From: Dermatophagoides farinae
Lineage: Eukaryota; Arthropoda; Arachnida; Sarcoptiformes; Pyroglyphidae
NCBI RefSeq assembly: GCF_024713945.1
Contig: NC_134677.1
Coordinates: 496,001 to 560,000, forward strand
Length of the DNA stretch: 64,000 nucleotides
Direction of reading: 5' to 3'
Part shown: positions 6,014 through 57,557 of the stretch, in pieces
How the letters are laid out: the number at the start of each line of letters is the position of its first letter
Position numbering within the stretch: position 1 is the stretch's first letter
The notes under the pieces: model-generated
The model's database searches: none
What the model was told of the DNA's origin: nothing
Seen by the model: only the letters and a program-made list of their open reading frames with translations
Position numbers and translations under genes: made by a program

Positions 6014-8244
<2,231 letters not shown>

Positions 8245-9278: not shown

Positions 9279-9282
9279 CTAT
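9279..9282. repeat. Target-site duplication (left copy, CTAT)
   Basis: The four bases CTAT lie immediately outside the left LTR and are repeated immediately outside the right LTR (12959-12962). This is the expected footprint of integrase-mediated insertion. Confidence 0.7.
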
Positions 9283-9427
9283 ACTTGACGACATTGGTTT
9301 AACAAAACAAACTTTATTTATTTTCACAAAGAACAAGGGAAACAAAAAACAAGAACAACAATTTTACCACACCACACCACGTGTTCTCTCCGCGCCGTTC
9401 ATAACAATCGTTACCCCCGCGGTAGCA
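9283..9427 (-). repeat. 3' LTR of the gypsy-type element
   Basis: A 145-bp direct repeat of 12814-12958 with one mismatch (C here, T there, in the TTTTAC[C/T]ACACC segment). On the minus strand it starts TGCTACCGCG and ends TGTCGTCAAGT, and it includes an AATAAA polyadenylation signal. The pol reading frame runs into it and stops at 9411-9413. Confidence 0.93.
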
Positions 9428-9749
9428 TTCCCCCTCCTAAACGTGTACATGGACGTCCACGAAACCGCAATTCAGCCAACGGCCCATCACCAAAAAATCT
9501 TTTTAGATGATTCTTATGAATCAACTTAGAATTGCCATAGCAGTCCACAATTACAACATTCGGATCAGTAATTCGTAAAATTTTAAATGGTCCTTTCCAT
9601 TTTGGGTTCAACTTCTTCGACGTACCAACCCCCTTAGCCATTACATGCCATAATACCAAATCATTTACATTAAATTTTTGATTACGAACAGTCCGATCAT
9701 AATATTTTTTCATGACTAAATTCCAAAACTTTAGCACAAAAACCAGCAA
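9411..9749 (-). pseudogene. Integrase C-terminal fragment of the gypsy-type element
   Basis: An open frame of 112 codons whose retroelement part begins near the MKKYYDRTVRN segment and continues through VNDLVLW, NPKWKGPFKI and HLKRF. This is the SH3-like tail that follows the catalytic core in gypsy integrases. Neither the HHCC zinc finger nor the DDE core precedes it, because the preceding sequence is the foreign ORF in another frame. The first residues of the open frame therefore derive from the junction rather than from integrase. The frame reads through the polypurine tract and stops inside the 3' LTR. The fragment has no catalytic capacity. Confidence 0.8.
9428..9438 (-). other. Polypurine tract (PPT)
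   Basis: On the minus strand the 11 bases AGGAGGGGGAA abut the 3' LTR exactly. This is the position and composition expected for the plus-strand primer of an LTR retrotransposon. Confidence 0.8.
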
Positions 9750-10716
9750 ATTTACGATATTTCATTACAGAATGTTGTGTTAGAATATCTTTATGCAAAG
9801 CTGGAAATTCCAATTTTTCAGTTGCTTCTAAAGCCAACATATAAGCTTCCAATTCGCCATGATACCATTGATCAGAAATAGATTTCCACGGAAATGTTGA
9901 AAATTTTCCAATAGCTTCTGATATTGTGATCATAGAAGTGAGTCCATAAGTTTTAAAACGACCGTGAAGGATTGTAAAGATTTCAGTTAAATCATTAGGC
10001 CGTAAAAACATAGATGACAATAGTTCCTGTTGTTTTTCTGTTGTTATTGTTGTCATATCACTCCACACACCCATTTCAGTCGGAGTGAAAAAGAAGTCCA
10101 TTTGTCCTCCAGTAAGTGCTTTAACAAGATTACCAGTGGATCGAGATGGTTCTTTACCAATAACTGTAAAACCAAATTTTGCATAAGAATAAGCCATTAA
10201 TTGACTCACGGTCATAGTCGTTCGTGTCATGAACAAGTAATTAAAGAGAGTTCCAAGATAAGAAAACTTCTGATTCCGACTATATTTATTCCAAATTTCA
10301 GCAGTCATAATTGATGTTGGGTAGGCAGATTTGAGTACCTCAAATGTCACTTTATCCACTGTTGATAACGGGTACATCGTGATTCCGCTGACTTTATAAC
10401 TGAGCAATGTACCAATCCCGTATCGCATTGCATTTTCGGACGAGATTTTTTCAGGAGTCAAATTCTGTTTATCAAGAATATAACCCATGCCTGATGCCTG
10501 GCAGAACCAAATGTAAAATTCATGGTTATTCATATTAGGCCGAGTGATGTCTGTCGGAAAAGCTGGAAAGGGAAGAGCAAGTCTTCCACGGACCATTGAA
10601 GTGAAAATTGATGTGGCATCATTGCAATCTTCTTTAGTAAATCCAATAGTATTTTGATATGTTGAATAACCTTGGTTATTGAACACCTCAACATCAGACA
10701 CTTTTTTATCTGGCAT
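9697..10716 (-). CDS. Foreign ORF inside the retroelement; candidate endogenous RNA-virus nucleoprotein
   Basis: An uninterrupted frame of about 339 codons from an ATG at 10716; the frame is open further, to 10728. The product has a compact, globular composition with no low-complexity runs, membrane segments or signal peptide, unlike host proteins in this window. It sits where RNase H and integrase should be and shares nothing visible with either. Segments such as FSYLGTLFNYLFMTRTTMTV and FKTYGLTSMITISEA give the look of the helical core of a mononegavirus-like nucleoprotein. I cannot name a family from sequence alone, so this is a hypothesis. The native 3' end appears lost: the final dozen or so codons are retroelement sequence read out of frame. 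Alternatives are a captured host gene or an unrecognised retroelement accessory gene. Confidence 0.45.
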   Translation of the reverse strand: MPDKKVSDVEVFNNQGYSTYQNTIGFTKEDCNDATSIFTSMVRGRLALPFPAFPTDITRPNMNNHEFYIWFCQASGMGYILDKQNLTPEKISSENAMRYGIGTLLSYKVSGITMYPLSTVDKVTFEVLKSAYPTSIMTAEIWNKYSRNQKFSYLGTLFNYLFMTRTTMTVSQLMAYSYAKFGFTVIGKEPSRSTGNLVKALTGGQMDFFFTPTEMGVWSDMTTITTEKQQELLSSMFLRPNDLTEIFTILHGRFKTYGLTSMITISEAIGKFSTFPWKSISDQWYHGELEAYMLALEATEKLEFPALHKDILTQHSVMKYRKFAGFCAKVLEFSHEKIL

Positions 10717-10728
10717 GACATGATTCAC

Positions 10729-11742
10729 TGAAAATGATCACATCATCCAAGAAAATCTTAACAAAATTAAATCCTTTTAAAACTTCTTGCATCATTTGTT
10801 GAAAGGCGATAGGTGCATTTGTTAAACCAAATGGTAAGCGTTTAAATTGGTACAATTTATCTTTTAAAACAAAAGCAGTTTTTCGCGACTGTTTGTATCC
10901 AATGAAATTTGATAAAACCCTTTCGTTAAATCCAATTTGGAATAAACTTTAGATTCAGAAAGATCCAATAATGCTTCTTCAATGTTTGGCATCGGATTGC
11001 TGTCTTTTTTGGTAATTCGATTAAGATCTCTAAAATCAATTGCCAATCGAACTTCACCATTTTTCTTGATGATAGGGACAATTCTATTTCTGAATTCACT
11101 TTGTGACAACTCAATTATATTATCAGCTAATAAAGATTCAACATGATCCACCAATTTAGGAATAAGGTGAACCGGTAAACGTTGGACCCTATGCCGAATA
11201 ATATCATCAGATTTTGTAATTATCTTAAATGTAGAAACATCTGTGCACCCAACACCATGAAATAAATCTGTGTTTTGATCCAAAACGTTCTGTATTTCTT
11301 GATAAACAGAAAATTGACGTTCGACGAATACATTTGAAAAAGATTGAGCTGCTGCACAATGATCATGTGACGAAGGAACCGGTATATTACACATCGTTAC
11401 AACTCCTTGCGAACGTTGTTCCAAATCAAAAACATTAATAACGTTCATTCCTAATAACATCTTCGAACATAAATTTTCGGTAACTTTTACAGAAATCATT
11501 TTTGATATCGATCCAATGGTTAATTTAAATGTAGCCCAGCCCATACTAGTCATCAAAGATTTATTTGCCAACATAATTTTAGAAACATTTTCAATAAATT
11601 TTAATTTTAATTCCTTCACCAAATCGTAAGAAATAGTTGAAACAGAACAAGCCGTATCATACACGGCAGTTACAGGAAAATTATCAATAAAAATAGCACA
11701 ATGAATAAGCTTCTTATAATGGGCTGGGCGAACTAGTTTAAA
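10729..11742 (-). pseudogene. Protease and reverse transcriptase (truncated, frameshifted) of the gypsy-type element
   Basis: An aspartic protease with YDTACS replacing the usual D-[ST]-G, then an LLGMNV flap-side motif, then the RT domain (RLPVHLIPKLVDHV, RLAIDFRDLN, SKLDLTKGFYQI, LPFGLTNAP, FLDDVIIFS). The frame is open from just after the gag stop codon, with no initiator, so it would be made as a gag-pol fusion. It breaks near 10882-10886, where an A-run is one base short; the rest of RT continues in the next frame to about 10729. Homology stops just after the catalytic DD motif, so thumb, connection and RNase H are gone. Family: Ty3/gypsy. Confidence 0.88.
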
Positions 11743-12876
11743 TCATTGGAAGACACTGAAGGAAAATCCGCCACATTTAACATTTGATTTGCAAGCTTTA
11801 GCGATATGACCAATTTGAAAACAAATCAAACAACGACGAAGAGAAATCAGTTTTTGTTTACGGGATTGCACAGAACCAACATTGCAGACAGCTGGAGCAT
11901 GATTCTTATTACAAAACAAACAAATCACATTTGAAGGCCGAAGATTAGGAACATTAAATGATTGTTTCTTAAACCCATTAAAATTTGATCGTCCCGGACG
12001 ATTGAATTGAATTGACCAAAATTCTTTAATTCGTTTTGACAGACGGTCCAAAATATCTTCAATCAATTCGAAGCCTTCCAAATCCAGCGTCGAAACATAA
12101 TCTTTCATAGGCATAGCCCAACCATTTGGTAACAAGGAGAAAAAATTGTCCAAAAATTCTTGCTCCACCCTGCTCGAATCTGCTTCAGCATCGGATGCTC
12201 GTCGAAACCAAACCATTAATTCATCTGCTAACCGTCGGAGATCGTTATTGACAAAAGCCGGTTTAATTTTCTTGAAATCGCGAAAAATTTCGTTGATTGA
12301 ATCATCCGGGGAAACGTACCGGTCATCTAGATTAGATAAAATCCACTCTATATTTTTTAAAGTGGGATTCACATTAAAGAATGAATGTAAATAAACAGGC
12401 ATTGCCTGACGCAAAAGTTGGAATTTTTCAGTTTCGGACAACTGCGAATTTGCCAAATATCTCGTAACGAACAAATCACGGAAAGAAAGCCAATTGCTCT
12501 TCCTACCATCAAATTTAATAATGATTTTCGGCATATTTCGACATGCGTTATTATCCATCTTAACTTTTGAATCGAAAAAATCCCATACTGCTTTGATCTT
12601 GACGACATATGATTCGATTTTTTTTATTTCTTCTTCCGTACCATCCATGGAAACCAAAGAGTCGATTCTCTCTTCCACTAATGAATTGTACTCTTCACAG
12701 ATACTTTTAAATTCATTTATCTTCTCAAGTGAACATTCCAGAGCCCGTGACTCAACACCATGATAAAACTTCGTGATCACACCTCGAACCACTGTTAATC
12801 TAGACTTGGCACCACTTGACGACATTGGTTTAACAAAACAAACTTTATTTATTTTCACAAAGAACAAGGGAAACAA
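11743..12876 (-). CDS. Gag polyprotein of the gypsy-type element
   Basis: An open frame of 377 codons. An ATG at 12825 lies inside the 5' LTR; the first ATG in frame is at 12876, also in the LTR. The central region (MPKIIIKFDG, NWLSFRDLF, ETEKFQLLR) resembles the DUF1759-type capsid of arthropod LTR elements. Two CCHC-like knuckles follow near the C terminus: CLFCNKNHAPAVC (spacing slightly short) and CLICFQIGHIAKAC (canonical CX2CX4HX4C). The frame ends in UGA at 11743-11745, and the protease continues immediately after it in the same frame. Function: capsid assembly and packaging of the element RNA. Its reading frame appears intact. Confidence 0.87.
   Translation of the reverse strand: MFPLFFVKINKVCFVKPMSSSGAKSRLTVVRGVITKFYHGVESRALECSLEKINEFKSICEEYNSLVEERIDSLVSMDGTEEEIKKIESYVVKIKAVWDFFDSKVKMDNNACRNMPKIIIKFDGRKSNWLSFRDLFVTRYLANSQLSETEKFQLLRQAMPVYLHSFFNVNPTLKNIEWILSNLDDRYVSPDDSINEIFRDFKKIKPAFVNNDLRRLADELMVWFRRASDAEADSSRVEQEFLDNFFSLLPNGWAMPMKDYVSTLDLEGFELIEDILDRLSKRIKEFWSIQFNRPGRSNFNGFKKQSFNVPNLRPSNVICLFCNKNHAPAVCNVGSVQSRKQKLISLRRCLICFQIGHIAKACKSNVKCGGFSFSVFQ
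12796..12813 (-). other. Candidate primer-binding site next to the 5' LTR
   Basis: On the minus strand the sequence after the LTR contains TGGTGCCAAGTC, which begins with the TGG complementary to a tRNA CCA end. It lies at, or one or two bases across, the LTR boundary. I cannot say which tRNA it matches. It overlaps the start of the gag coding sequence. Confidence 0.45.
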
Positions 12877-12958
12877 AAAACAAGAACAACAATTTTACTA
12901 CACCACACCACGTGTTCTCTCCGCGCCGTTCATAACAATCGTTACCCCCGCGGTAGCA
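12814..12958 (-). repeat. 5' LTR of the gypsy-type element
   Basis: A 145-bp direct repeat of 9283-9427 with a single mismatch. It carries the element's presumed promoter, an AATAAA signal and, unusually, in-frame initiation codons for gag (ATG at 12825 and 12876). Confidence 0.93.
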
Positions 12959-12962
12959 CTAT
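12959..12962. repeat. Target-site duplication (right copy, CTAT)
   Basis: Matches 9279-9282 outside the left LTR. Confidence 0.7.
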
Positions 12963-26324: not shown

Positions 26325-29300
26325 TCATGCCAACGTAACTGCCGTTTTTATTGGATCACCATCCAGATCATCATCATTCACCGGTAATCGTTGTCCAGAT
26401 AATTCGGCTTCAAATTTAGCATATCTATGAAAACAAAAAAAAACCAAAACAAATTATCATTTAAACGATGCACACGTGCAATGAAAAATCAAACAGAAAT
26501 AAAAATTCAATGGAAAACACACACACACACACAATGAATGAACAATAGAAAATTTTTTTCAAAGTTTGCACTAGACAAAAAAAATAACCACAAAAATAAT
26601 AGACAAAAAACGATAAATTTAGATTGCATCAATTTCATCACCATCATCATCATCAATTATCGATTGTAAATATTGGCACCAAAAGTCACATTAATCTTCA
26701 AACAAATGGTGTAATTAATCAAAAAAAAAAAAAAAAAAAAGCCAAAATGATCGGTTATAGATTCACAAAAGTAACAAAAAAAACAGACAAATAACCGAAA
26801 ATGAATGTGGAATCTTTCCATTTCTCTGTACATTCTCATGACTATCTTTCTGTCTGGAGAGAATGATAATATACACAATTTGACGATTTTTTTTGGTGAG
26901 AAAATCAAATAATCTAACGACATTCTCTCATCATCATCAAAAACAACGTTAATCTAAAGAACAAAATCAAAAGTTATCTATCTTTATTTCCGAGACAAAC
27001 AACAAACAAACAAGACAATAAAAAAAAACAACAAGACAAAATAAAACAAAACAACAGAAAGAAACAAAACAAAAAAAAATTCCGTTGATGGAAAAAATTG
27101 CTTTCGAAAGATGAAATCACAAATCAAAACTCATACAATAAACACAATGATGATCATCATTAGATCATTAATAAATCGAATTGGAAAGCCTAATTTTAAC
27201 AACAACAACAACAACAATAACAACGACGACCACAATGGTTACAATTTTGCACGAATAAGCAGCTAAAGAATGTGAATATTTTGAAATGAATGAAACGATT
27301 CACTGGAATATTCCTCACTCTCTTTATTCTGCAATGAAAAAAAAACATACTGATCTCAACCACGTTTTTTTTCTATTTAGACTGACACAACAAATTCAAC
27401 CACAATCATAATAACGATGATGATGATGATAATGAAATTTAAATTGAAAAGAAAAAAAATGTCTACAACAACACAATCCACATACATACAAAATGAACAT
27501 TTTTTTGTGAGCATCATCAAGAGAGTCTATTTATGTGTGTTTGTGTGTGCGACGACGACAACAAAAAAAATGGAAAAAGAATTTTTCTTTTCAGAATATA
27601 TTAGAATGAGAATAGAATCTAAAAAAAAAAATTTCAATTTAAAATTCTTTCAACAAAAAAAATAAAAAAAAAATGGAAAATAGTTTTATGCTTCAGTTAG
27701 CACTTAATATGATGATGATGATGCTTGACGCCGAATAATAACCAAAATGATTCGGCCATTCAAAATAATGATCATGATGGCTGCAAGAGAGAAAGAATAT
27801 TGTGTGTAAAAAAAATTCTGTAAATACAGAATATTCAACATACACACACACACACACACACAAGAAATTATGAATTAAATTATGAATTTCTTTCTTTCTT
27901 TAAAATCATCATCATGATCATGATCATGCCAACAAAAAGAAAAATATTAAAATTCAATTATTGAATTCAGATTCAAAACCATTGTGTTCATGTGTGTTTG
28001 ATTGAAAAAAAATTCTCACACTTTCTTGTCATAATAAACCTAATATAATAATATCGATAATATCGATACATGGATAGATAAATGATTCAATAACAAAAAA
28101 AGGTCATCATCATCATCCACCAAAAAAAAAAAATTTGTCACAAGTTAATAATAACTTTATGTGTTTGTCTATCTGTGTGTGTTTGTATGAGAAATTGATT
28201 TGTTGTTCAAATCAAATATTAATCAAAAATCGTAGCCACAGTAGCAGGTAAATAATAAAAATATGGCTGATGAGAAAATCATATCGCACACATATGATTT
28301 GTATTTGTATGTGTGTGTGTGTGTGTGGGAATAAATAAACGAAGAGATAAACAAATAGATAGTTTGATTTTGTCAAAATATAAATAACAAAAAAAAAAAT
28401 AAAATGAACAAAAAAAAACTTACATTCGATTAAATCGATTACGTTCCTGTTGACTAAGTGCAGGTCTTGTCATCTTCATTGCTTGTTGAATGTTTGTCCA
28501 TTCAATTCGAATTTTTTTATCATTATTTTTGCTGCTGTTGTTGTTGTCGTCGTTGCTGTTGTTGTTGTTGTTGTTGTCATTTTGTTGTTGAATGATTGAT
28601 TTTTGATGATCATCCATTGCCTGTTTGGTGGCATCTAAAAATGCATTATATAATAATGCCTGTATATCGGCACCAGTAAAATTTTCCATTGATTTCTCAA
28701 TCTTATTGAATGATGAATTGATGTTTTCATTAAAATCTATTGATAATTTTTGGCCATAAATAGTAAAAATTTCTTTTCGTTCATTTTCATCAGGCAAATC
28801 ACAACGTATTAATTGATCAAAACGTCCTGGCCGTAATAATGCCAGATCTATTAGATCTGGACGACTTGTGGCGGCTATAATGAATATATTTCGATCACGT
28901 TCTTCAAGACCATCCATTAGTGTTAACATTTGATTGACAACACGATCGGTAACGCCAGTACTATCATGACCACGACGTGGTGCTAATGAATCAAATTCAT
29001 CAAAAAATAGTATACATGGTGATGCGGCTTGTGCTTGACGAAATATTCGTCGTACAGATTGTTCACTATTACCAATATATTTGGACAATAATTCTGGTCC
29101 TTTAACATTTAAAAAATTCACTTTGGATTCATTTGCAATGGCTTCAACTATGGCCGTTTTTCCGGAACCAGGCATACCATAAATGAGTAATGAATTTGGT
29201 AATTTCAATGGTAAATATCGATGCAGATTTGGATGTCTTATTTGCATGAGAATAAGATCTGAAAGCATTTCTTTAACACGTTTCATACCGCCAATATCTT

Positions 29301-31927
29301 TAAACAAACGTTTAGTATTCAATTTTAAATTATCTGTTTTTTGTGTCAATTGAAAATTATTCCATTTCGTTATAGCTTGATTTACATGGACATCATTAAT
29401 CATAATCACTTTTGTATCATTCATTTGTTTTGGCATTAAATTATCAACCAATGCACTGTGAATAATCATATCGATTAAATTGTTCAAATGTTGAATGGGA
29501 AAATTTTTCGTTATTTTTGACAGATATTTCATATCAATATTTATTGATGTTGTCATTGTTGAACATTCACCATACGATAGATTTTTATATTTTTTGTTGA
29601 ATATTTCATTCAATATTTCAATTCTTTGTCCACTATTCAGTGGTTGTAAATCGATTGTTTGATCAAATGTTGGAAATTTTTTCAACACACGATTTAAACA
29701 TTCACTGGATTCAGCAGTAGCAATGATGGTGACACGAGAAAATGATGTACAAGATGATTTCAATTTTTTCAATGAATCAACAAGATGAAAAAATAAATAC
29801 GATATCCGTTCACAATAAAAACTTTCTGGTGTTGTTGATTTCGTTCGATCTGATTCATCATTTGAATCGAATGATCGTACATTGTTCCTGCCACCACCAC
29901 CATCATCATCATCACCATCACCGGTATCATAGGCAATCTGATGTAAATCTTCAAATACCAATATTGATGGTTGATGATGAATAGCTTCAGTGAATAATCG
30001 TGACCATGATTTCTGCAGTGATTCAATTCTTTTACCCTTAATGTTTGAACATTGAATTTTAGCACTCCAAATTCGATGATTTTCAAAACAATCATATAAA
30101 AGACGTTCGATTAGTGTTGTTTTACCAGTACCTTTTGATCCGGTAACCAATAAAGCGGTGAATAAATTTACATTGCCAGATTCTGTAATTGAATTTAAAT
30201 TCAATGAATTATGAATGAAATGTATGCATTCTTGTAAGGTTGCAGTACGGCCAGCAAACGGTTTGGTGAGGATTTTTTCATAATTTTCCATCATATCATT
30301 GATTATTTGACGTTTTTTTGTCAATTTATTCAAATGCATTGTCATGGAAGAATTCACAGCCGATACTTGTTGCATAATGATTTCAGTCAACAATGGATCA
30401 ACCACAAAACTTGTGGAAAGAAATTTAAAAATTTCCACATCAAAATCAGGCACCGGTGATTGTTGTTTGATGATGAAATATTGTTCATTATCATTTTTTG
30501 GATCAGCAACCAAGAATCCATTATACATGAGTATTTGATTGTTTGATTTTTTGACCAATTCATTGTGGAATTCATTCGATTTCAATTTTGACCACAATAA
30601 TGGAACTATGAATATTTTTCGAGCCACCGGAATATTCAGACAATCAATGCCATCATTGTTTTTTTCTACAACCAAATTTATTTGCCGTAAATCTGGACTA
30701 TCCAAAATGACGTAAGATAGAAACGATAATGAATACTGTATGATGAATGAATGGCTAAACATTATTGAATCATCTGGACATTTGTCATTTGCCATTACTA
30801 ATACGTTTAGATCATTTATGTGATCATAAATTTTCAGATATTTATCAACGAATGTTGTACAAAATTTTTCATTAGCAGACATTGTTGTCACATCATAGCC
30901 GATGGAAACAATGTCTGACGTTTTACTCGTTGAAGGATCTAATTTTATCAGTCGAACAATAAAACGACTTGATTGAGTGCCTAAATTTTCAAAATGTTTT
31001 CTAGATATAAATCCAATGGATGTTGTGTTTGAATCAATTTCTTTGGCCAGAATAACACGTAAAAATAGCTTTTTGCCATGATAAATTGGAAATAGTGTAT
31101 GATGATGTTTTGTCATGGTCATCGTATCACCATCATCATCAGTGATGGGATCATCATTCGATGATGAATGAGTAATGGGAAAAATATTTTCACGATTTGG
31201 AACCAAAGATTTGAATAGACCAAAAACGGATTTTAAACTTGTAGACGGCATTGTAATTGGCGGTACGATGGCGGCATCATTTTCAATTTCATTCTGCGGA
31301 ACGATAACAATTTTCGTTTGCCTGGTTATTATCAATCCGGTTTTATTTGTTGTTGTTGGTTCAACACGAAAAATTCGCACAAAAATCGGCACATTTGGTG
31401 AACTTTTCAACCACAATGGAAAAATATTGAATTCATTATTTTTCAAAAAAGCAACAGTCACCATTCGTATTTGATTTAGAAATTCATATTCAATTTCTTC
31501 AGCATTCATTTCAATAAGTTGATGATCATCATTGGATAATGGTTTCAAATAACAAGAAACACATGGTGATATTCGATTCGATAGATCATCGATAACTTGC
31601 ACCAGAATCAATTCATTATCAATAATATTAGATTTTGATGCAAAATTTCGATCCAAAAATATTGAATCTTCAGTACAATTTTTACTTCCATTCCATGTGA
31701 CATATAGAAATTTATCTGGTTTTATATCGTCCAAAAAGATTAATTTGATTATAATTAGACCCTATAGATCAAGAGAGAAAAATGACATGTGAATCAAATC
31801 AAATCGAATGTTAGATCTGACTTACAAATGAATTTGAACGAAAATTTTGTACAGTCCATTTCGATGGCAATGTTATGAAACAATTTTTCGTATCTTTTAA
31901 TTCTATTCGACCATGAAAGAACGACAT
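26325..31927 (-). CDS. PEX1: Peroxisomal biogenesis AAA-ATPase PEX1, three exons
   Basis: With PEX6, PEX1 forms the hexameric AAA motor that extracts ubiquitinated PEX5 from the peroxisome membrane. Exons: 31826-31927, 28424-31761 and 26325-26424, giving 1,179 aa (human PEX1 is slightly longer, about 1,280). The N-terminal double-psi/barrel region shows CYLKPLSNDDHQLIEMNAEE and LNQIRMV, typical of PEX1. D1 has Walker A GSKGTGKT (about residue 575) and a degenerate Walker B ILVFEDLH. D2 has Walker A GMPGSGKT (about 894), Walker B ILFFDEFDSLAPRRG, sensor-1 AATSRPDLID and the RPGRFDQ arginine finger. The last exon lies 2 kb away; it restores the conserved aromatic helix (YAKFEAEL) and a terminal TLA like that of vertebrate PEX1. 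The exon 2 donor is AT/GTAAGT. Exon 1 starts MSFFHGRIEL and carries the conserved NCFITLP segment. Confidence 0.93.
26425..28423 (-). other. PEX1 intron 2 (about 2.0 kb), unusually long
   Basis: Bounded by GTAAGT at 28419-28423 and an acceptor TAG at 26425. It contains a poly-A/T stretch near 26720-26740, CA tracts near 26519-26532 and 27841-27861, and GT near 28312-28327. No embedded gene is supported. Confidence 0.7.
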
Positions 31928-38492: not shown

Positions 38493-39728
38493 ATGTCCGA
38501 TGATGATCATCATCATCATCATCTAGATGATGATAATAACTATGAATCAATCAGTGATCAAATACAATCCGTATCAAATGAAACAATGTTAAGTGAGAAG
38601 GAAAATAACGAATCAAACAACGAAGACGATACTGTGGTTGATGAAGAGCTTGAAGAACAGCAACATTTTTTCGATATTATCAACACGTTTCGTTTTTATA
38701 AAAGTTATAATATGAAAAAAGTACAAAAACGAATCGATTTTGTTGGCACAATGTCCACAAAATATCAACAATTGTTGCAAAATTATTCCAAACATTTGAC
38801 TAAAGTTCAACATTGTATTCTACATAATTATGAAATAATTAAAGTGATCATTGGCGATGCAGCTAAAATATTTCGTAATCATGTTTTTCTCAAAGACAAT
38901 AGAAAAGAATCCAATCATTCATTGATAATGAAATTGGAAAAAGATCTTGATATTTCTCGTATCGATTCTATATTGAATCAAATTGTTCGTGAATGGTGTC
39001 ATGAAGGCGCTACAGAACGTGAATCATGTTTCCAGCCAATATTGAATACAATTGAAGAATATTTTCCTTCACTTGTGAATCGAAATCAAATCAGAATTCT
39101 GGTTCCTGGAGCTGGCCTAGGAAGATTACCATACGAAATAGCTAAACGTGGTTATTCATGTCAAGGAAATGAATTCAGTCTGATGATGTTATTCGTTGCC
39201 AATTTTATATTGAATAAAATTGATTCTACCGATATGTTTACATTTTATCCATGGATATCACATTTTTCAAACAATCTTCAATCTGATCATCAAACAATAC
39301 CGATAAAATTTCCCGATGTTAATCCTGCGACGATTTCGAAAGATGTAGATTTTTCAATGGTTGCTGGTTCATTTACGGAAATATTTAACAACCAACAACA
39401 GCATAAAAATGACCAATTTGATTGTATTGTCACTTGTTTCTTTTTGGATACAGCACAAAATATCATAAATTACGTGGAAACCATTGACAATATTCTTAAA
39501 TCAGATGGTGGTTTATGGATAAATTTTGGTCCATTACTTTATCATTATGCCGATTCATCACAAGATTCATCAATCGAACCTAGCTATGAAATTGTCAAAG
39601 AAATTATTGAATCATTTGGTTTTAAATTTTTACAGGAAAAAACTAATCAAACTTGTTATTATACTAGAAATCCAAATTCATTGGTTTCATATGAATATCA
39701 TTCGATTTTTTTTGTTTGTCGTAAATAA
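38493..39728 (+). CDS. CARNMT1: Carnosine N-methyltransferase-like (CARNMT1/UPF0586, N2227 family), single exon
   Basis: SAM-dependent methyltransferase; the vertebrate orthologue methylates the histidine of carnosine to make anserine and also methylates histidines in proteins. Length is 411 aa, close to the human protein. The N-terminal about 65 residues are acidic and low complexity, then the family core begins at FFDIINTFRFYKSYN. SAM-binding motif I is IRILVPGAGLGRLPYEIAKRG. Other family segments are CQGNEFSLMMLFVANFILN, FTFYPWI, FSMVAGSFTEIF, DCIVTCFFLDTAQNI, GGLWINFGPLLYH and YEYHSIFFVCRK. No introns. The substrate in this animal is unknown. It converges with CWC15, with only 67 bases between the stop codons. 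Confidence 0.92.
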   Translation: MSDDDHHHHHLDDDNNYESISDQIQSVSNETMLSEKENNESNNEDDTVVDEELEEQQHFFDIINTFRFYKSYNMKKVQKRIDFVGTMSTKYQQLLQNYSKHLTKVQHCILHNYEIIKVIIGDAAKIFRNHVFLKDNRKESNHSLIMKLEKDLDISRIDSILNQIVREWCHEGATERESCFQPILNTIEEYFPSLVNRNQIRILVPGAGLGRLPYEIAKRGYSCQGNEFSLMMLFVANFILNKIDSTDMFTFYPWISHFSNNLQSDHQTIPIKFPDVNPATISKDVDFSMVAGSFTEIFNNQQQHKNDQFDCIVTCFFLDTAQNIINYVETIDNILKSDGGLWINFGPLLYHYADSSQDSSIEPSYEIVKEIIESFGFKFLQEKTNQTCYYTRNPNSLVSYEYHSIFFVCRK

Positions 39729-44083: not shown

Positions 44084-45405
44084 TCATTTTCGTGAATAAA
44101 ATTTTTGTAATGCATCAGCACATTCTTCAGATGCCCAACTTTGTTGTAGAAAATCACATTCAACTTTGTTGATTTCATGTAACTTTAATCGGGTTTCTTC
44201 ATTACGTACAATGCCTTTTGCATTGAACATTGAATTTGGATAACATGTTTTCACCAGTCCTTTTTCACTATATAGCCATTCTTCAAGATGATTTTGTAGT
44301 TTATCAGATGGAACGATCCGTGATACTAATCCTAAACGATGAGCTTCTTCAGCTGGCATTCGATAATTAAAATACAATAATTCCGATGCTAATGATGGGC
44401 CAAATATTTGTGGAAATGTATGTGTCGAACAACCTTCAGGTGATTGTCCCAACGATGAAAAAGGACAGGTGAAAAAAACTTTTTCCGTAGCGATGACACA
44501 ATCATATAGGCCCAACGTTGTGAACATGATTCCAAAACAAGGTCCATTAATGGCACCAATTAACATTTTAGGAAAATCAATAAAAGCCGATACAAATTCT
44601 TGACAAAGGGCACGTGATACATCCATTGCTTTCGGTATATCACCATCAAATTCTTCAATGGCTCGTGGAAAATTATCTGTAAATTTAAAATTTTAGTCGA
44701 TAATTCCACAAAAAAAAAATCTAGGCAAGCAAAACAAAACTTACTTAAATCATTACCACTGGAAAAATATGGACCATTACCAGTGATGACCGTAAATTTA
44801 ATACCAGGATCTTCAGCCGATCGTTTCAAAGCATCAATCAGTCCTCGATACATTTCCGGTGTAAGAGCATTATATTGTTTGGGGCGATTTAATTTAATCC
44901 AATAAACTTGATCACGTTCTTCGAATACAAGTTCAGGTTCTTTTTGTTTTGTCGATTTATCCGGATTTTCATTCAATAATTTATTAACAACTTCAATGTA
45001 TTCTTTTTTTGCATCATCTTGTGACATTTCACCTAACGATTTCCATGCTTGATATGTAGCTTTTTCACTTGCACTAAACATTGATGGTTTATCACCGGTA
45101 CAAGGTCCAATACTACCTTGTTTACAGAGAGCAATTAGTCGTAATTTTGTATCATTATCAGCGTTGATAATTTTTGGAAAATTAGCAATAGCTGTTTGAA
45201 AATCTTTTTCAATCTGATCTTGATGCGATGATGATGATGATGATGATGAGAATTTTCGTTTTGTTAAATCATGAATATTTGCATAGCTGATTTGTTGAGC
45301 TTTCATCAAACTTGGCAAATAATTTCGATTTGAAATGAAACATTTTTGATTTCTTATCAATGAATTGCCAAAATATTTGGCCAAAATTCCAAGATTTCGA
45401 TTCAT
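44084..45405 (-). CDS. ECI2: Enoyl-CoA delta isomerase 2-like protein (ACBP plus crotonase domains), two exons
   Basis: Shifts 3-enoyl-CoA double bonds to the 2-trans form so unsaturated fatty acids can enter beta-oxidation. Exons: 44745-45405 and 44084-44676, giving 417 aa (human ECI2 is 394). The first about 60 residues are basic, hydroxylated and Arg-containing, consistent with a mitochondrial presequence. An acyl-CoA-binding domain follows (DFQTAIANFPK, CKQGSIGPCTGDKPSMFS, ATYQAWKSLGEMSQDDAK). The crotonase fold then gives IKLNRPKQYNALTPEMYRGL, the oxyanion segment GPYFSSGNDL, INGPCFGIMFTTLGLYD and SSLGQSPEGCS, whose Glu is the expected catalytic residue. The C terminus is SRK, not a classical SKL-type peroxisomal signal. 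The start follows stop codons in all frames nearby. Confidence 0.94.
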
Positions 45406-45687: not shown

Positions 45688-47042
45688 TTAGTAATACAAA
45701 TACGGATGATGATGATGATGATAATGTGGATGTCCCGTGTTTGCCGTCGTCGTCGTCGTCGCTGTTGTTGTTGTAGATGATGAATTTGGTTGGAAATTTG
45801 CATAATTTGATTGATGAGAATGGTGATTAAAATAATTACAATCAACAGCAGCAGCAGAAGCATCAGCATTGTTCGAAATGGTCATAGATGATGGTGGTGG
45901 TGATGAAATTGAATTGATCGGAAGCGGAGAAACAATGTTTCCAGGTATAGAACTATGATTTAAATCATTTCCATATTGTGAATAATTCCAACCACTGTTG
46001 CTATAAATTGTTGTTGTTGTTGGTGATGACGATTGATTCGAAGAATGATGATAATGATAAACATTCGAATATAATGAATTTGGCGGTGGTGGTGGTGGCG
46101 GTGAACTCGAACATGTGGATGATGATGTAGTTGAGGGTGGTGGTAGCGGCAGGGATGGTGGTTGTGAAACAAACATTCCACCGGAAGATGAGGAAAATTG
46201 TTCATGAAAATTACCAAATTTATGAAATATTGTTCCAAGGAAATTATTCGAATTTTGTTCGACTGGTTGACAACAACTACTGGTTGTGGTTGTTGGCGTT
46301 GTTGTTTCAGATTTTCTCGAAATATTAAATGTTTGATTTTTCGAATATATCGATGAATCGTGTGATGATGATGATGATGATGTGGTGATGATCATCGGTT
46401 TGATTGTAGACGGTGATGGTGATTTGGAATCAAAATTTGAATAGGAAAAATCTATGGATGAATTCGATCGAGATTTTGTTCGATCATTTTGTTTTTGTTG
46501 TTTATCATCATCGACTGTATTTCCGATAAAATCTTTCGATACTGAATCATATTTAACATTACGAATTTTTTCTTCACGTCTCCATTTAGCACGACGATTT
46601 GAAAACCATACCTGTATACGTGATTCAGGCAGATTGATTTTTGTGGCCAATTTTTCTCTAGCAAATATATCCGGATAATGTGTACGTTCAAATTCCTTTT
46701 CCAATGCATTCAATTGATATTCAGTAAATGCAGTACGATTACGATGAAGTTTTTGTGTAACTTGTTCCGCAGCCATTGTCATCATTGGTGGATACATTCG
46801 ATTATCATTATCCTCATGATTGGACATTGTTGTTGTTGTGGTATTTGTTGTAATTATTAAATTAGTTTGATGATGATGACTTTGATCATTTCGGTAATTA
46901 AATTTACCCGATGTATTTGATCGACGATTCGTTTTTGTTTTCAATAATGATGATGATGATGATGATTTAATAAAAGATTTTGATTTCATCGTTCGTTGTT
47001 GCTGTTGTTGTTGTCGTAGTAGGTATAAACATCTATCAACAA
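45688..47042 (-). CDS. PAX4/6-type (S50) paired-class homeodomain protein; 5' end not found in the window
   Basis: Nuclear transcription factor. An uninterrupted frame of 433 codons starts at an ATG at 46989, but the frame stays open to a good acceptor (TTTTTTTCTAG) at 47043, so upstream exons are likely. The homeodomain lies at about residues 81-141 of that frame: [50 protein letters not shown] and REEKIRN. Serine at homeodomain position 50 and the REEK C-terminal arm are hallmarks of PAX4/6 rather than PAX3/7 or Q50 paired-like proteins. The rest is Ser/Thr/Pro/His-rich, like the PST activation domain of Pax6. No paired domain is encoded anywhere in the 4.4 kb upstream that I can see. The best reading is a Pax6-related gene, complete or missing its distant 5' exons. 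Confidence 0.82.
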
Positions 47043-54680: not shown

Positions 54681-57557
54681 TCACATCATCACATGTAACA
54701 TTGATTTCACCATACTCACCGATGATTGTTGCTGTGTCAATTGTGATTGAATTTGATTGACCATCTTGTCCAATGTCATCATCACTTGATATGCTTTGAT
54801 CATACAATTTTGATTTAAATCATCAATGATTATGTCTGTGTGAAAATGAAATCAAATTATTTATAATTAAAAAAAAATCAATATCAATCCAAACCTTGAA
54901 GCCAGATTTTAAAATCAATCATTTGATTTGATAATTCATTTAAAAGATAATGACCAGGTGTTGATTGTAAGACAATCTTAAATGTTTGAATGATTGCTGA
55001 ACGAACATTGCTGTTTGAATTTTGAATAAAAAAAAATGCAAACAGTAAATTAAATTAAAATTGTAATCAAACACAAAAAAACAGCGAACCTTTTCGAATG
55101 ATTACGATAAGAATAAATGAATGGCAATAATTCTTTTGACATTAACATTGTTTGTGAATGTTGATGACAATTCTGTAACAGGATGCCCAATGCCAATATT
55201 AATGATTCAACAATGAATGAATCGATATCGTTGATTTTCAATTTTAAATCCATTTTTTCAAAATCACGTAATAATGGAAAGAAAAAATATTTTGCAAATG
55301 GCACGAATCGATTCGATGATGATGACATTGTTGATGATTCTGAATGTTTTTGATGATAAATTGGTGAAATAAATCTTGTATTGGATTTTATTCGCTGTTC
55401 GATTATGGATTTCCAATTTTGCTGTTCAGAACGATCACCATCATCATTATAATCGGTATCGATAGTGAAAAAATCACGTTGAAATTTTTGATTCTTTTCA
55501 CTGATTGATAAAAGTTTCTGACTGTTTTCTGGAATTGGTTTGATAAATTTATCATGATCTTTATATTTAAATGGCTGTAATTGACACAGTTCTTCACTGG
55601 CTTTTGTCAATACAGCAAGAACATCTAAACGATTCTGGATGGATATATACGGTGCATAGAAACGATCAGCTAAATAGCTGGCAACAATTTTTGGTGATCC
55701 AACACAAAGTGCAATCAATGAATTCAGTCGTAATTGATCGAAATTTTCAATACCACCATTATTATCTAAATCTACAAGTATTTTTGCCAAACGTAATGAT
55801 ACCGAATCCAATTGATTATAATGATCAGTATTGGCACGAATTATTTTCTCAGCTGATTGTAGACATTTTTGTTTCCATTCAGATTTTTCGTCATCACTAC
55901 ATAGTCCTTCAATCAAATCTTGCAGATAGATGGGCCGCTGTTTAGAGCTATCAATCAATAGGATATCTTGAATATTTTTCTGATTTTTCAATATTGAAGA
56001 AGTGCCCAAATTTTTCTTTGTAAAACGAACATCATCACCGATTGGAATATCATTTGAAATATCATATGGTTCTAGATCATCATCGTCGTCATCATCGCTA
56101 TCAAATGTTGTTGATTTCATCATATCCACTATATTAACATTATCATCAGTAGTAGCAGTGGTTGTTGTTGTTTGTTCATCATCATTGGTCATCATAGATT
56201 GTGTGGAAATTTCGTTTTGATTTTGAACATTATCAAATAATTGATCCAAATCGAATGAACCAAGATATTTTAAATGTTTACAACAATCATCATTTTCTAA
56301 TGCATCAAGTTCTGGAAATTTTGGCAATTCAATATCGATAGAATTGAATCGAATGAAAAGATCAAATAGAATGACTGATGTAGTGAGGCCAATATTACGA
56401 AATTCTTGCTGTGAACAAGCCAGATTTATTGTCGAACCAATAAAAGTTGATGATTGTAATTTTTTGATAATTTTTTCCATATCTTTGACATTGCTTTGAT
56501 TTTCTGATAATAATAATAATCTTGTAAATAAAATCATTAAACGACAAAAATAAAATTGCTGTTGATATTGACGATAATTGAATGCATTAGAATTTGACCA
56601 TGCATCCATTACATTTAGTGAAGCATTGATGAACCACTTGCGATTCGCACGAAATAAATAGCCCAATAAATTATAGATGAATTGATCATCACGATTATTA
56701 TTATTGTTATTTTGATAAACAACCAATGGACAATGATAAATGAGAATGAATTTGTTTGTCAATAGAAATTCAATTTTCGATAATAATGAATCATGATGTT
56801 TGTGTAGATAATCGAATGGAAATAAAATTTCCATCGATTTAGGACTAGATGAATGATGCAATATCATTTTGAATAATGGTTCTAAAAATTTAGACATTTC
56901 AGAAATGGTTGGTCCATCATCATCATCCTCTTCACGGTGATATGAAAATAGAATATGTTGTGTAATGATCATCCATCGAACATCATCGATTAATTTATTG
57001 AATAAATTTTCAAACAAATGAATCCAAATCAATTCTTGATAACCACGTAGACACAAACGACGTATAATACAATGCATATGGTGCATAATAAATGATTCCA
57101 TAGCTTGTTCAACTCGATATATTCCATCAAGAATCTGTTGCAAAACCCGACAAAGTCGGGCAATGTAATTTTTTGTTTCAAATTTATGTGGATAACCAGG
57201 ACCATATAGATTTGCAATCAATTCGGGAAATGATACCAAAATGTTGATAAATTTATCCAACTCAAATGATGAATATTTCATCGTTTGTTTCCGGATAGAT
57301 GTTGTCATGATAAGATTTTCAAAATTTTCCGATTCAAAAATGACATCGATAAGAATCGCAATCATTTTATCACGTCTTAATGATTTTTCTTTTTCAATCA
57401 ATAATTTTTCAATAAAAACATTGAATTTGATGATTGATCGAGACGATAGAATATACTGGTGAAATTCATCATATTTTTCAGCATCATTTTCGATTCCATT
57501 CTTTAATCGATCAATATTTTGGGCAATATTTTCAAAATTATCTTCGATCGAATCCAT
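54681..57557 (-). CDS. TELO2: TELO2/TEL2 (PIKK maturation factor), three exons
   Basis: Core of the TTT complex (TELO2-TTI1-TTI2), which with HSP90/R2TP stabilises mTOR, ATM, ATR and SMG1. Exons: 55090-57557, 54895-55010 and 54681-54835, giving 912 aa (human is 837). The N-terminal HEAT-like helices are divergent; the C-terminal block is diagnostic: KQRPIYLQDLIEGL, RLAKILVDLDN, LRLNSLIALCVGSPKIVASY, FYAPYISIQNRLDVLAVLTK and FVPFAKYFFFPLLRDF. Exons 2-3 continue the helical C terminus (SNVRSAIIQTFKIVLQS, MIKAYQVMMTLDKMV). The acidic Asp-rich linker near residues 480-500 is where CK2-phosphorylated serines lie in other animals. The donor of exon 1 is the weak GTTCGC. The exact C terminus after residue about 895 is uncertain, because a GTGAGT donor lies inside exon 3. 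Confidence 0.88.

Follow-up and report, generated by a model that had tools for sequence, protein, structure and literature searches.

A non-autonomous, chimeric insertion of Ty3/gypsy type in the genome of the dust mite Dermatophagoides farinae carries an internal piece of a nucleoprotein-like (N-like) gene in place of the core of its pol gene. The element lies on the minus strand of the 64,000-nucleotide stretch of DNA that was analysed, here called the window (contig C1, positions 496001-560000), and spans window positions 12958 to 9283 (3,676 bp). The genome searched was that of D. farinae, comprising 62,435,336 bases in 22 contigs. The most economical reading of the element is a double template switch, in which a gypsy reverse transcriptase (RT) would have moved onto and then off a sense RNA; we hold this reading to be about an even call. 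The donor was probably a nucleoprotein gene of a negative-strand virus, from outside the assembled genome.

A first-pass annotation of the window had listed long terminal repeats (LTRs), a target duplication, a polypurine tract, gag, protease and RT, all of which were found (Table 1). The two 145-bp LTRs agree at 144 of 145 positions, with a single mismatch, and the element stands between two copies of CTAT. With the primer site, the gypsy-type RT and the gene order gag-protease-RT, the hallmarks of Ty3/gypsy elements are present; the RNase H and integrase core that mark an autonomous member of this group are not. Pfam matches within the protease/RT frame were to RVT_1 (E 4.8e-8) and Asp_protease_2 (E 4e-5), and the RT changes frame once, somewhere around 10864-10909. 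Weaker matches, below the cut-off, were obtained for gag (DUF1759, E 1.1e-3) and for the integrase tail (SH3/MLVIN_C). The element family is represented by two rearranged copies, that in the window and one on contig C9, plus a distant match on C2 (68%). The C9 copy is a mini-element (L045 884-1118, minus strand) made up of a single LTR and 81 bp of internal sequence at 98% identity; it breaks off abruptly where the final bases of another LTR follow, and CTAT repeats bound it on both sides. Outer ends are complete in the window and C9 copies alike, each with a 4-bp duplication.

What has been replaced can be seen by comparison with a relative on C4 (C4:6964846-6968960, in L041), which was compared through its gag and pol frames, both of them complete. 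Its pol protein of 964 aa has Pfam matches to RVT_1, RNase H, the integrase zinc domain and, below the cut-off, the integrase core. When this protein was searched against the window with tblastn, residues 2-254 matched at 11667-10882 (38% identity), residues 245-308 at 10909-10721 (52%) and residues 872-963 at 9710-9441 (52%), while residues 309-871 gave no credible match in the window, the sole row touching them having an E of 3.6. About 563 pol codons are therefore missing relative to C4, covering the remainder of RT, RNase H and the integrase core, and the foreign piece stands in their place rather than being inserted into an intact pol. The first-pass annotation had placed the loss of homology at the motif FLDDVIIFS and its return only at the C-terminal tail of integrase, and both placements hold. 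In the 5' join, the last codon with RT similarity is GAA of FLDDVIIFSE (10725), and resemblance to the N-like family is evident from a CAT codon at 10722 onward. The 3' join lies between LEFS at 9715, where this resemblance stops, and 9710, where similarity to integrase begins. Both joins are abrupt, and each falls within pol as well as within the donor gene. Full-length parental copies were sought in the genome for a closer view of the junctions, as had been proposed, and no close intact parent was found.

The insert forms an open frame of 346 codons (10737-9697) in the same orientation as the element and without a Pfam match at E up to 1, in keeping with the unrelated frame of about 1 kb claimed at first. 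Four loci make up the N-like family in this genome: the window copy and three resident copies, on C6 (483 aa), C3 (534 aa) and C10 (520 aa), with each match falling in one open frame. Relative to the C3 protein the insert lacks both ends of the gene, the first 84 and last 112 residues having no counterpart. The best further DNA match to the insert in the genome is the C6 copy, at 68%. LOC124494102 of D. farinae matches the C6 copy at 100%, and LOC124489811, also of D. farinae, equals the C10 frame. A search of 5.8 billion proteins brought up six relatives of the insert, itself not counted, at E up to 0.01. A profile search at E up to 10, made among the 8,000 candidates sharing most words, gave seven besides itself, and the protein P0005 as query gave three besides itself. 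Two of the eight profile-search matches carry names, both from D. farinae.

Proportions of synonymous differences (pS) between the window copy and the C3, C6 and C10 copies are 0.84, 0.82 and 0.74, and those of nonsynonymous differences (pN) are 0.19, 0.21 and 0.32 (own NG86 script). By this estimate synonymous sites are saturated or nearly so against all three. As the LTRs are nearly identical, none of the C3, C6 and C10 copies is a recent donor, and the long divergence must have happened elsewhere, in a functional gene, before the insertion. A tree of seven core sequences, which left out P0003 and P0008, places the window copy with the protein P0007 on one side of a split that has the remaining five on the other (support 89); P0007 is 76% identical to the window copy over 177 residues. 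Repeated sampling of one virus lineage would fit both the divergence and the tree well.

Similarity between the C3 and C6 loci starts about 65 nt 5' of the start codon, stops near the end of the frame and is confined to this stretch. The C10 locus matches the other copies within the gene, and matches the window also in simple repeats. At the edge of the stretch shared by C3 and C6 (L018 ~4206, L020 ~4231) a run of T is followed by a run of A, a putative RNA end or leader. Copia-type debris is found at two of the loci, with a gag adjoining the C6 copy and an integrase piece adjoining the C3 copy, the latter identified by tblastn with a copia-type pol. Of the genome's 45 RVT_2 matches, three are no more than about 5 kb from the C6 copy. 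An LTR-like stretch at C3 occurs in five further places, mostly partial. The copia-like integrase piece and the N-like gene on C3 stand between the two copies of a direct repeat, each about 430 bp long (88.6%; 2286-2710 and 5982-6405 of L018).

Were the frame a regular accessory gene of the gypsy lineage, it would be expected alongside RT elsewhere. Among the gypsy-RT matches listed for the genome, 24 as a lower bound, that of this element alone comes within 10 kb of any N-like locus; the next-nearest, a 25-aa fragment, is about 11 kb away from the C6 copy. The C4 relative has no such frame, and the standard accessory gene that the first-pass annotation had reckoned with was not seen. The similar G+C content of the parts of the element (0.32-0.37) speaks against an assembly artefact at the join. 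For the 339-aa protein of this frame the longest contig given is 2,133 bases; this suggests that the frame also stands in a second record and has no bearing on the joins. Positive support was found for neither an accessory gene nor an artefact, and we consider this pair of explanations very improbable.

Under the template-switch reading, a gypsy RT copying gypsy RNA from its 3' end would have come off its template within the integrase tail, copied about 1.0 kb from the interior of a sense RNA of an N-like gene, and resumed on the gypsy RNA at the RT palm, about 1.7 kb farther upstream. The resulting chimeric cDNA would have retained both ends and been integrated with a 4-bp duplication, integrase presumably being provided in trans by another element. 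The donor may have been an infecting virus with a negative-strand RNA genome, or a sequence very recently derived from such a virus and outside the assembly. A tentative version places all of this in one RT cycle in an infected germ cell, with the RT jumping onto the nucleoprotein mRNA of a still uncharacterised negative-strand virus and back, followed by normal LTR integration. A double switch with a viral donor had been proposed from the outset; the foreign intronless coding segment inside the element bears out part of this, a viral donor and switching at the level of RNA being putative.

The foreign piece lies between the two LTRs and between the two CTAT copies, which speaks for the earlier claim that it was integrated as part of the element. 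A rival to that claim is an event at the DNA level, in which a normal gypsy integration was later followed by deletion of the pol core and insertion of N-like DNA through break repair. The presence of the N-like family as DNA in the genome favours such an event, as does the hexamer GTCATG at both joins. However, when 20,000 pairs of 22-nt stretches were drawn at random from the element, 10.1% shared a 6-mer (pairs less than 100 nt apart being scored as no match), and with no close intact parent in the assembly, microhomology at the joins is no more than putative. Repair would also have to fit a loss of about 1.7 kb and a gain of about 1.0 kb into the short time set by one LTR mismatch, would have a one-in-two chance of giving the same orientation, and would need a closer donor than those at 68-70% identity. 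We regard a DNA-level origin as rather improbable. The same frequency of chance 6-mer sharing led us to reject the idea that TCATG on either side of the foreign piece is a kind of duplication. The TCATGAA of the 3' join recurs 24 nt further down in the C3 gene, which is suggestive only.

That the N-like family is viral in origin we think fairly likely; a chu-like virus as the particular source is possible, with the balance somewhat against it. The support for a viral origin is indirect: the loci are intronless, scattered single frames whose flanks are not shared, two of them beside copia-type debris, and the genome also holds remains of a viral polymerase. A decayed polymerase (L) fragment of Mononegavirales type was found at C10:1992892-1993233 and in adjoining sequence (L046 1067-1851, minus strand), in at least two frames. 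Two of the four pieces tested match Mononeg_RNA_pol collinearly (E 1.6e-6 and 4.4e-6, both just below the curated cut-off), and all nine PDB chains listed for these two are L proteins (E 0.042 to 1.1). The fragment shows that viruses of Mononegavirales type were apparently endogenised in this genome. Scans of IMG/VR with two polymerase pieces gave no matches for one and none confirmed out of seven for the other. A degenerate polymerase-motif pattern found 22 loci, none of them resembling a negative-strand polymerase when the frames were read by eye. A link of the fragment to copia elements was dropped, the adjoining LTR-like stretch occurring once only.

Several observations weigh against a template switch onto a viral mRNA. 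There is a single copy of the chimera, its mobility as such is indicated by the LTRs and duplication alone, and the joins are judged from one distant relative. Sequence searches with family members, which need short exact words or curated models, found no viral protein relative, and the insert (in a 343-aa form) had neither a Pfam match at E up to 1 nor a PDB relative of note. The structure models are of low confidence, with nucleoproteins among the rows for one model and none in the 50 rows listed for the other, and the predicted structural likeness to nucleoproteins of chu-like viruses is weak and was not reproduced. The sole polymerase-type Pfam match of the genome search falls just below the curated cut-off. 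Among the other searches, NCBIfam gave no family for three of four proteins and three weak matches, far below the cut-off, for the fourth, and an IMG/VR scan with the N-like alignment yielded 210 pattern matches of which none was confirmed. The PF14318 profile found nothing, a result of little weight as its 14 controls were likewise undetected, and the controls of the PF00946 profile went undetected as well.

The lack of a viral relative in sequence searches would suit a host gene as donor, and the chief alternative to a viral donor is a host paralogue that has been lost or is missing from the assembly. In that case the RT would have switched to the mRNA of a family of mite genes, which might go back to a viral gene domesticated long ago. 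The family is under constraint, with pN well below pS, and all three resident copies keep long open frames, two of them annotated as mite genes. Yet the loci are intronless and scattered with unrelated flanks, two of them in retroelement debris, and no named relative from another species was among the matches. Saturation of synonymous sites within one genome would, moreover, demand great age of the paralogues. We think a host donor unlikely.

Elsewhere the window holds ordinary host genes (Table 1). About 1 kb from the element, a low-complexity frame on the plus strand (7054-8244) has no Pfam match; its start resembles the end of a Sox HMG box.

Table 1. Features of the chimeric element and of neighbouring host genes, in window coordinates
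Feature	Position	Strand	Basis
Target duplication CTAT, right copy	12959..12962	.	sequence reading
5' LTR (TGCTACC...GTCAAGT)	12814..12958	-	144/145 identity with other LTR
Primer-binding-site-like stretch, begins TGGTGCCAAG at 5' LTR end	12797..12814	-	sequence reading
gag frame from first ATG (inside LTR)	11743..12825	-	27% identity to gag of C4 relative; ATG placed by translation count
Protease and first part of RT, single open frame	10864..11742	-	Pfam; 38% identity to C4 pol
RT palm up to FLDDVIIFSE, different frame	10725..10909	-	sequence reading, tblastn
5' join	10722..10725	-	RT similarity stops, N-like similarity starts
Captured internal piece of nucleoprotein-like gene, ~1,008 nt, no stop	9715..10722	-	C3 residues 85-422, 69.5% identity
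3' join	9710..9715	-	N-like similarity ends, integrase similarity starts
Integrase C-terminal tail	9411..9710	-	52% identity to C4 pol 872-963
Polypurine tract AGGAGGGGGAA, immediately before 3' LTR	9428..9438	-	sequence reading
3' LTR	9283..9427	-	144/145 identity with other LTR
Target duplication CTAT, left copy	9279..9282	.	sequence reading
PEX1-like AAA ATPase	28420-31734	-	Pfam, ordinary host gene
Carnosine N-methyltransferase	38493-39728	+	Pfam, ordinary host gene
ACBP and enoyl-CoA hydratase	44560-45405	-	Pfam, ordinary host gene
Homeodomain protein	45688-46989	-	Pfam, ordinary host gene
Telomere_reg-2 protein	55050-57557	-	Pfam, ordinary host gene

A retroelement RT has reportedly been caught on a negative-strand RNA virus template before, when RNA of lymphocytic choriomeningitis virus recombined with a mouse intracisternal A-particle element; this is said to be an experimental finding, with no two intact LTR ends around the viral piece. 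Among natural cases, the BEL/Pao elements of mosquitoes named Anakin carry a chuvirus glycoprotein (PMC7642597) and resemble the present element in having a gene of a negative-strand virus, here a putative one, within retroelement LTRs. In Anakin, as described there, the glycoprotein is added to a complete Pao element present in many copies, whereas here an N-like piece replaces the pol core in one gypsy-type copy: the RT matches are of gypsy type, the pol core is absent and the insert has no match to a glycoprotein family in Pfam. Endogenous viral elements (EVEs) from Jingchuvirales are flanked by Gypsy, Copia and Pao elements, two of them within complete transposon boundaries (PMC10084718), and likewise associate such viral genes with arthropod LTR elements. 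That study was a glycoprotein screen, and its authors state that neither Gypsy nor Copia elements had clearly captured the glycoprotein. Aedes genomes hold non-retroviral integrations among gypsy and Pao elements that are credited to retrotransposon RT, likely through template switching, and the AeBunya1 integration sits inside a full-length Pao-Bel element (PMC5497376). The same enzyme is invoked here, and AeBunya1 too lies within an LTR element; the Aedes cases presented are mostly ones of adjacency, whereas the two crossovers described here are narrowed to a few bases inside one element. Plant LTR elements have captured genes, as in Bs1 (review PMC13317346), and template-switch chimeras occur in Triticeae (PMC1950507). 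These are similar in that foreign pieces or second elements were fused through abnormal template switching or transduction, and differ in that the donors reported are host genes or other retroelements rather than a virus-like gene. Lineages of chuviral nucleoprotein EVEs are known from ticks, in an account whose pertinent sections mention no similar element (PMC10675110). Titles and opening lines of the abstracts listed from the open-licence literature on mite endogenous viruses, chuvirus EVEs and template switching yielded no description of the element.

RNA-virus sequences in animal genomes are widely credited to retroelement RT on evidence that is mostly adjacency. Here both crossovers lie inside one element with intact ends and a target duplication, so that the proposed mechanism can be read from the sequence. 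Dust mites are described as silencing transposons by small interfering RNAs (siRNAs) in place of PIWI-interacting RNAs (PMC5886382, PMC5805368). If the proposed reading is true, the element would be a two-junction fossil of the step that brings RNA viruses into animal genomes, in an siRNA-silencing mite lineage, and a 62-Mb genome with three more family members and a polymerase fragment makes the question testable.

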